Below the pieces are notes generated by a model. That model was not told where the DNA came from, made no database searches, and worked only from the letters and a program-made list of their open reading frames with translations. This document shows, in pieces, positions 18,700 through 20,847 of a stretch of 32,486 bases of DNA. Every line of letters begins with the position of its first letter. Position 1 is the first letter of the stretch. This DNA comes from Nocardioides sp. (GTDB taxonomy: Bacteria > Actinomycetota > Actinomycetes > Propionibacteriales > Nocardioidaceae), in assembly GCA_026786275.1 (NCBI GenBank), contig JAJAYJ010000157.1:1-32486 (forward strand). The letters run 5' to 3'. The position numbers and the translations under genes were made by a program.

Positions 18700-20847
18700 C
18701 AGGGCTGGTCCTTCTCATCGAGGTCGTGGGGTTCAGTGATCGACGTGCTGAACCCGCTGGAGGTGGTCGGCGGGGCGAGGTGGTGACGCTGGTCGCGTTT
18801 GCGCTCGTCGTACGTCGCCCGCGCGGCGGTGGTGGAGTCGAGGGTGGAGACCTCGGCGACCGGCACGTCCCACCAGGCCGGGCTGTCCGGCGCGGGCACG
18901 AGCGGGTCGGTCTCCACGTGGATGACGGTGGTGCGGGTCGACTCCTTGGCCTTCGCGATGGCCGACCTCAGCTCGTCGAGGGTCTGGACGATCAGGACGT
19001 CGGCGCCGAGGCTGGCGGCGTTGGCGGCCAGGTCGACCGGCAGCCGGGCGCCGTCGAGGCGCCCGCTCCGCTGAGACCGGTAGCGGTAGCTGGTGCCGAA
19101 GCGCTGCGAGCCCAGGGACTCCGAGAGGGCGCCGATCGAGGCGTAGCCATGATTCTGCACCAGCACGACGATCACCTTCACGTCCTCGGCCACGGCCGTG
19201 ACGAGCTCGGTGTTCATCATCAGGTAGGACCCGTCGCCGACCATGACGAACACGTCGCGGTCCGCGTCCTCGCCCCGCGCGGCCTGGTCCTGGGCCGCCA
19301 TCTTCACGCCGAGGCCGCCGGCGATCTCGTAGCCCATGCAGGAGAACCCGTACTCGACGTGGTATCCCTTGCGCTCGCGGGTGCGCCACAGCTTGTGCAG
19401 GTCGCCGGGCATCGACCCGGCGGCGCAGACGACCACGTCGCGCGGGTCGGACAGCTCGTTGACCGCCCCGATGACCGCGGACTGCACGAGCGGGCCGGGG
19501 GCGTCCCCACTGCTGGAGGCCGGCCGGTCGTAGGCCACCTGCACGATGTCGTCCCAGGCCGCCGCGAGGTCGGTGGCCCGCCCCGTGTGCCCGGCGTCAG
19601 CCCGCCAGCCCGCCAGGGCCCCGGTGAGCGCCGTCAGGCCCTCGCGGGCGTCGGCGACCAGCGTGCTGGCCGAGAGCTTCTGGGCGTCGAAGGTCGAGAC
19701 GTTCAGGTTGACGAACCGCACCCCCGGGGCGCCGAAGACGGTGCGGGAGGCGGTCGTGAAGTCGCTGTAGCGGGTACCGACGCCAATCACGACGTCGGCG
19801 TCGGCGGCCAGCGCGTCGGCCGCGGTGGATCCGGTCGCGCCGACCGCGCCGACCGCCTGCGGGTGGTCGTAGGCCAGCGCTCCCTTGCCGGCCTGCGTCT
19901 CGGCCACCGGCACGCCGGTCGCCTCGGCGAAGGCGCGCAGGGCCTCGTTGGCCCGGCTGTAGGTGACGCCACCGCCGGCGATCAGCAGCGGCCGCCGGGC
20001 CGACCGGATCACCTCGACTGCGCGAGCCAGCGCGGCCGGCTCGGGCAGCGGCCGGGGCACGTGCCAGACCCGGGTCGCGAAGAGCTCGTCGGGCCAGTCG
20101 TGGGCCTCCGCCTGGACGTCCTGCGGCAGGGCCAGCGTGACCGCGCCGGTCACGGCGGGGTCCGTCAGCACCCGCAAGGCGTGCAGCAGCGCCGCCGGGA
20201 GCTGCTCGGGGCGCTGCACGCGGTCGAAGTACGCGCAGACCGGACGGAGGGCGTCGTTGACCGACCAGTCGCCGTTCGCGGCGTCCTCCAGCTCCTGGAG
20301 CACCGGGTTCCCGACCCCCCGCGCCGCAGACACCCCCGGCACCAGGGCCACCCGCCGGCCCTTTGCCGTGGCCCCCCCCGCGCCCCCGACCCCGGTTGTC
20401 CCCCCCCGCCCCCCCCCAGCGCGGACCACCGGCGGCCCCCAGCGCCGGGAGCCCCGGGGGCGCGCCCGGGGGCGCGAAGACGTCGCCGGGCAGGAGGAGC
20501 ACGGGCAGTCGGTTGACGGTGGCCACCGCGGCGCCGGTGACCAGGTTGGTCGCGCCCGGCCCGACCGATGCGGTGACCACGTGGGCCGCGAGCCGGTCGC
20601 GCTGGCGGGCGTAGGCGGCGGCGGCGTGCACCATCGCCTGCTCGTTGCGCCCGTGCAGGTAGGTCAGCCGCGGCTCGTCGCCCGCGAGCTCGCGCTCGAG
20701 GAGGGCCTGGCCGACCCCGGCCACGTTGCCGTGGCCGAAGATGCCCCAGCAGGCGGTGAAGAACGGGTGCTGGTCACCGTCGCGCTCGACGTGCTGGGCT
20801 TCGAGGAAGCGGACGGTCGCCTGGGCGACGGTGAGACGGATGCTCAT
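18699..20847 (-). pseudogene. iolD: 3D-(3,5/4)-trihydroxycyclohexane-1,2-dione hydrolase, frameshifted as sequenced
   Basis: IolD is a thiamine-diphosphate enzyme that opens the inositol-derived ring. The first 125 residues (MSIRLTVAQATVRFLEAQHV to PVLLLPGDVFA, ending at 20473) are in one frame. The remaining 536, from NPVLQELED at 20309, are in another and include the cofactor motif VGDGSYLMMN...NHGYASIG. Between them sit 163 nt where the family has only about four residues. Removing 151 nt restores one frame of 665 residues, close to normal IolD length. The extra 151 nt are a noisy copy of the adjacent coding sequence (see the repeat entry), so a consensus error in an intact gene is the likeliest explanation. 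Neighbouring genes are intact and overlap it (ATGA with iolB, TGATG with iolA), which also argues for a working gene. Confidence 0.85.
20322..20472 (-). repeat. 151-nt degraded tandem copy inside iolD (probable consensus error)
   Basis: This C-rich block (runs of 7 to 8 C on the plus strand) aligns to 20473-20623 at a constant offset of 151 nt. For example, 20333-20372 matches 20484-20523 ungapped at 25 of 40 positions. Of the 15 differences, 11 read G on the coding strand. Even its translation shadows the source: RVALVPG against PVLLLPG. A true recent duplication would be near-identical, and divergence strongly biased to one base suggests poor base calls joined in assembly. Confidence 0.8.

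Follow-up and report, generated by a model that had tools for sequence, protein, structure and literature searches.

The iolD gene on this contig is almost certainly broken by an assembly artefact and not by biology: two contig ends covering the same stretch, one of them consisting of noise, would have been joined without being collapsed, and the real iolD is most likely intact. The window analysed is the whole of contig C157 (32,486 nt), part of a 2.72 Mb draft genome of 189 contigs that is 77.6% complete. The frame of iolD is interrupted by a block that is a noisy copy, or echo, of the 151 nt preceding it in the direction of reading.

The iolD locus and its excess length

The iolD gene lies on the minus strand, flanked by iolA (17191-18699), recognized by its match to the methylmalonate-semialdehyde dehydrogenase (MMSDH) profile, and iolB (20844-21755). 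In profile searches, iolA, iolB, and iolC exceed the curated cut-offs, and the matches of an iolE-like protein and of two IolG-like dehydrogenases stay under theirs. The iolE-like protein (23643-24611, minus strand) scores 174 bits against TIGR04379, well under the curated cut-off of 290. The open reading frame in the interval between iolB and iolC (21755-23020, minus strand) has no NCBIfam match at 0.001; we take it to encode an aldolase-like protein. Within this iol gene cluster, both parts of the interrupted gene match IolD, the 3D-(3,5/4)-trihydroxycyclohexane-1,2-dione acylhydrolase (TIGR04377), from which the gene differs in being split, in all likelihood by an artefact. The 3' part is the single match of its kind in the genome. 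The features of the locus are collected in the table.

Features of the iolD locus and of the right end of the window
Feature	Position	Strand	Basis
5' part of iolD, codons 1-125, ending ...LLLPGDVFA	20473-20847	-	TIGR04377 positions 1-117 of 616, E 1.3e-54
3' part of iolD, from NPVLQ onward, 536 codons plus stop	18699-20309	-	TIGR04377 positions 122-615, E 2.6e-206
Clean copy, template of the echo, inside the 5' part of iolD	20473-20623	-	Alignment at offset 151
Noisy 151-nt echo, frame shifted by 1 nt	20322-20472	-	82/151 identity at offset 151; readable part keeps true G 34/35
Initial 45 nt of the echo along the coding strand, G+C noise with no readable similarity	20428-20472	-	26 of 45 columns mismatched
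Readable remainder of the echo, repeating 20473-20578	20322-20427	-	63/106 matches; G 34/35, C 19/45, T 5/15, A 5/11 kept
12-nt bridge to NPVLQ, RGVG where relatives are TRVA-like, probably noisy as well	20310-20321	-	Translation of the open reading frame compared with relatives
Noisy end of contig C157	32413-32486	.	Runs of 10 C, 7 G, 7 T

For comparison with TIGR04377, the two parts of iolD were cut at GDVFA and NPVLQ. Outside the block, they cover the profile in order and without stops, at 185.9 and 687 bits; neither part alone attains the cut-off of 715 set for the whole protein. Between profile positions 117 and 122, 12 nt are expected and 163 nt are present, an excess of exactly 151 nt, which was obtained independently of the echo and yet equals its offset. 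The four-residue spacing from xDxFA to xPVLQ is fixed in 93 of 95 relative loci (92 counted by script and one, L019, which was wrongly cut by the pattern, by eye; the 95 include at least one organism twice), and it is not kept in the assembly. The motif is absent from the two other loci, L010 and L088.

The initial annotation had proposed that removal of 151 nt restores a 665-codon IolD with a Thr-Arg-Val-Gly bridge between GDVFA and NPVLQ. The length is correct by arithmetic only (125 + 4 + 536 = 665). The bridge does comprise four residues; its sequence reads Arg-Gly-Val-Gly, and the commonest form among relatives is Thr-Arg-Val-Ala. Given this difference in the codons before NPVLQ, the noise probably goes on for another 12 nt or so after the echo and reaches 20310, as judged from the translated sequence. 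Noise reaching beyond 151 nt may mean that more than one read was involved.

Identity and error pattern of the echo

The block aligns with its template without gaps at a constant offset of 151, and this is its top ungapped placement on both strands of the window; the runner-up, at 28035, reaches 80/151. When the letters of the block were permuted, 51.4 +/- 5.2 matches were obtained with a maximum of 70 in 5000 permutations, compared with 82 observed. One 80-nt stretch contains 51 matches at offset 151, as against 22.4 +/- 4.4 with a maximum of 37 elsewhere in the window, where the same offset was tested at every third position. The echo described in the initial annotation is therefore confirmed beyond chance. 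Its account of the clearest 40-nt stretch, with 25 positions agreeing and 11 of the 15 differences being G, fits 17 of the 112 possible windows of that length, and the best windows show 27 of 40 positions agreeing and 11 of 13 differences to G. The similarity claimed for all 151 nt is readable in 20322-20427; in 20428-20472, where 19 of 45 columns agree, it is unreadable and the sequence resembles G+C noise.

Raw identity was rejected as the sole proof of the echo, as G+C-rich, codon-periodic DNA attains 80/151 elsewhere. At other loci in 409 kb of sequence, at least 51 of 80 positions match at some offset of 30-320. The analysis was therefore moved to the columns in which the template is not G and to the retention of G. 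Identity in the non-G columns of the readable part is 0.41, compared with 0.17 +/- 0.04 for other placements, and none of 32,014 other plus-strand placements is as high. The fraction of G kept is 0.97, whereas the maximum among those 32,014 placements, counted only for those with 20 or more G columns, is 0.89. The resemblance is not due to chance, and the errors are directional.

The direction of the errors is toward G. Of the 26 C lost in the readable part, 23 became G, as did 6 of the 10 lost T, and 5 of the 6 lost A became C or T. Across all 151 nt, the block differs from its template at 69 positions, and at 44 of them the coding strand has G in place of 33 C, 7 T, and 4 A; C to G is the commonest change (33/69). 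This is the behavior of poly-G noise, in which true G stays and other bases turn to G, although only one of the six lost A was read as G. The noise is densest next to the junction and thins out along the strand direction in which the errors read as G. Such fading away from the junction is not like the decay of a single read tail.

In two-channel sequencing instruments, C, T, and A are labelled and G is dark, according to the label scheme outlined in PMC11140927, and poly-G artefacts arise in two-channel systems once synthesis has ended, as summarized in PMC8484467. Retention of G, drift of C and T to G, and loss of one of the two labels of A is the signature of two-channel signal loss. Reading the change of A to C or T as the loss of one label would follow from the scheme as outlined in PMC11140927. 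The block shares with the poly-G artefacts of two-channel Illumina data the calling of lost signal as G and the presence of G runs absent from the genome (PMC8484467, PMC11140927). There, such artefacts are described in reads, whereas in the present case the miscalled stretch lies inside a contig and is an extra copy of neighboring sequence.

Further echoes and the distribution of G-run noise

A second echo is present on contig C172 of the same draft genome, where 30891-31038 (L259:992-1139) is a noisy copy of 30743-30890 at offset 148, identical in 83 of 148 positions. It splits a Na+/H+ antiporter gene (TIGR00831). None of 135,286 other placements, taken at every third position of the plus strand, reaches this identity, and none is as high in the non-G columns (0.48 compared with 0.20 +/- 0.04). 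Beyond column 45, the copy retains 37/41 G, 4/22 T, 24/35 C, and 2/5 A; the fraction of G kept is equalled by 1 of the 135,286 placements. TIGR00831 positions 116 and 120 lie 157 nt apart where 9 nt are expected, and the excess of 148 equals the offset of the echo; the ends of profile matches are soft by about a residue, and the agreement is nonetheless exact. An equal three-residue gap is seen with Pfam PF00999. The order of elements is that found in iolD, a clean copy followed by an unreadable G+C stretch and then by noise fading into clean sequence. The downstream part of the antiporter has a match in 23 of 24 genus mates, 17 of them at 66-72% identity and nearly full length.

A third echo was found in the assembly of a genus mate, G008, on its contig C33. 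There, 32433-32545 repeats 32320-32432 at offset 113 with 74 of 113 positions identical, the two together making up L234:721-946, and both copies are partly degraded. It is situated between two open reading frames, one of which presumably encodes an aminotransferase-like protein. Two of the offsets, 151 and 148, nearly equal the length of a 151-cycle read, which is suggestive only. A fixed read length of 151 nt as the cause is weakened by the offsets of 148 and 113; on account of the third offset, the length is better called that of an uncollapsed overlap.

The genome contains 74 runs of at least 12 G, of which 70 are no farther than 200 nt from a contig end and the remaining four are at two internal places, on C86 and C172. 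This agrees with poly-G noise, which is expected where an assembly is weak, at contig ends and joins. The innermost runs at contig ends are of G in the outward direction in 16 cases and of C in 16 (32/51 ends with runs). The run on C28 lies about 200 nt from the contig end. Ten spots exceed the threshold for G/C runs in the 409 kb, which consist of the window and 20 stretches of long contigs, several picked for listed G runs and hence not random. Seven of these are found less than 100 nt from a contig end, two resemble natural repeats, and one is the iolD block, the only noisy spot away from a contig end. Candidates on C56 and C8 were set aside because they look like natural repeats, and C116, C179, C22, and C89 carry single runs without a surrounding noise block. 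The noisy right end of the window sits just upstream of the start of a minus-strand gene, which we take to encode a substrate-binding-like protein.

Runs of at least 12 G are absent from 16 of the 24 genus mates and occur once in each of four; the other four (G008, G014, G017, and G019) carry 7 to 36. In the latter (loci L226-L245), many long G/C noise blocks occur, also within contigs of 1.0 to 1.7 Mb. By eye, L229, L235, and the first block of L245 consist of a G run and then C runs near an apparent gene end.

Most noise in these assemblies is not an echo. At 40 contig starts (20 in contig order minus C10 and C15, and 20 others of which 16 were picked for listed G runs), no echo was detected at offsets of 100-200, either by raw identity or by informative columns. 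L178 is the sole start with a best offset near 150 by raw identity, with 69/151 at 153, a multiple of 3, and no G/C runs. By informative columns, scores above 5 are confined to L204, at offset 420, and to three starts carrying long runs, at offset 60. The internal noise at C86:9753-9857 (L258), which is apparently intergenic, shows no echo beyond runs matching runs, and the internal G/C-run noise at C20:17548-17635 (L260) has no readable echo. Twenty noise blocks were taken from 19 of 20 loci of the four noisy genus mates (L232 has none, and 6 of the 20 loci extend to a contig end). Inspection by eye revealed an echo only in L234; the other strong scores are G or C runs matching themselves, for which reason L239 (offset 153) and L243 (offset 95) were rejected as echoes. 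A narrow literature search returned no title that deals with such noisy echoes, and absence from the literature is not claimed.

Origin of the block and its consequences

The observations are best accounted for by an overlap that failed to collapse. Two contig ends, or graph paths, would have covered the same ~151 nt of iolD. One end would be clean, finishing at 20473 on the minus strand; the other would consist of two-colour Illumina calls of low quality, with G called where signal was lost. As the noisy end would no longer have matched the clean one, the overlap would have been left uncollapsed, and laying the ends one after another would have inserted one overlap length and shifted the frame. 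We infer the two-colour chemistry and the joining step from the features of the block. False tandem duplications at uncollapsed contig overlaps likewise consist of adjacent copies about as long as the overlap and are made at a join. The second copy seen here differs from these in being noisy to the point (54-56% identity) of no longer resembling a duplication. The initial annotation had proposed low-quality base calls merged into the consensus, which is supported by the G retention, by the location of G runs at contig ends, and by the second and third echoes.

A real 151 bp tandem duplication in iolD that has since decayed, leaving a pseudogene, would produce the constant offset and a frame-breaking insert. 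It is nevertheless very unlikely, as neutral decay would not keep 34 of 35 G while turning 23 of 45 C into G, and a drift toward one base would be unexpected, yet 44 of the 69 differences are to G. Moreover, both halves of the gene outside the block fit the profile without stops, the pattern recurs in the antiporter gene on C172, and long G runs otherwise lie at contig ends. This alternative had already been ranked lower in the initial annotation, and the ranking holds, since decay accounts for none of the G retention, the G runs at contig ends, and the further echoes. Still more improbable, to the point of being barely credible, is targeted mutagenesis by a diversity-generating retroelement or another form of hypermutation, writing G-biased copies beside their template. 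A template and a variable copy do stand side by side at two places in the genome. Diversity-generating retroelements alter template A positions, whereas the changes to G in the echo are not limited to one template base and come from C, T, and A. In addition, the targets would be a metabolic enzyme and an ion antiporter, each gene being broken by its copy, and the noise has homopolymer runs like those at contig ends.

The block could also be noise of unrelated origin, such as a filled gap, with a similarity at offset 151 that arose by chance in G+C-rich, codon-periodic DNA. The placement at 28035 comes close in raw identity, matches of at least 51/80 occur at offsets of 30-320 elsewhere in the 409 kb, and the first 45 columns of the echo are without similarity. 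However, the non-G columns single out offset 151, which is not a multiple of 3, the IolD profile requires exactly this length, and the agreement of excess and offset is repeated on C172, leaving this explanation highly improbable.

With the uncollapsed overlap as the preferred explanation, a false gene loss is removed. The advice in the initial annotation against scoring the gene as lost is upheld, and inositol catabolism is not to be scored as broken because of this block; the antiporter on C172 is likewise not to be scored as lost. The combination of true G kept, other bases drifting, and an echo offset equal to the excess length provides a test for false pseudogenes in draft genomes. We propose, tentatively and as a real possibility, that uncollapsed joins in two-colour assemblies of high-G+C bacteria repeatedly give rise to G-retaining noisy echoes of some 110-150 nt, and that these errors form a class that can be detected. 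Such echoes would create frameshifted false pseudogenes that are missed by ordinary duplication or poly-G filters and could be found where the excess length against a protein profile equals the echo offset. The third echo, found in another assembly, makes such a class more likely.
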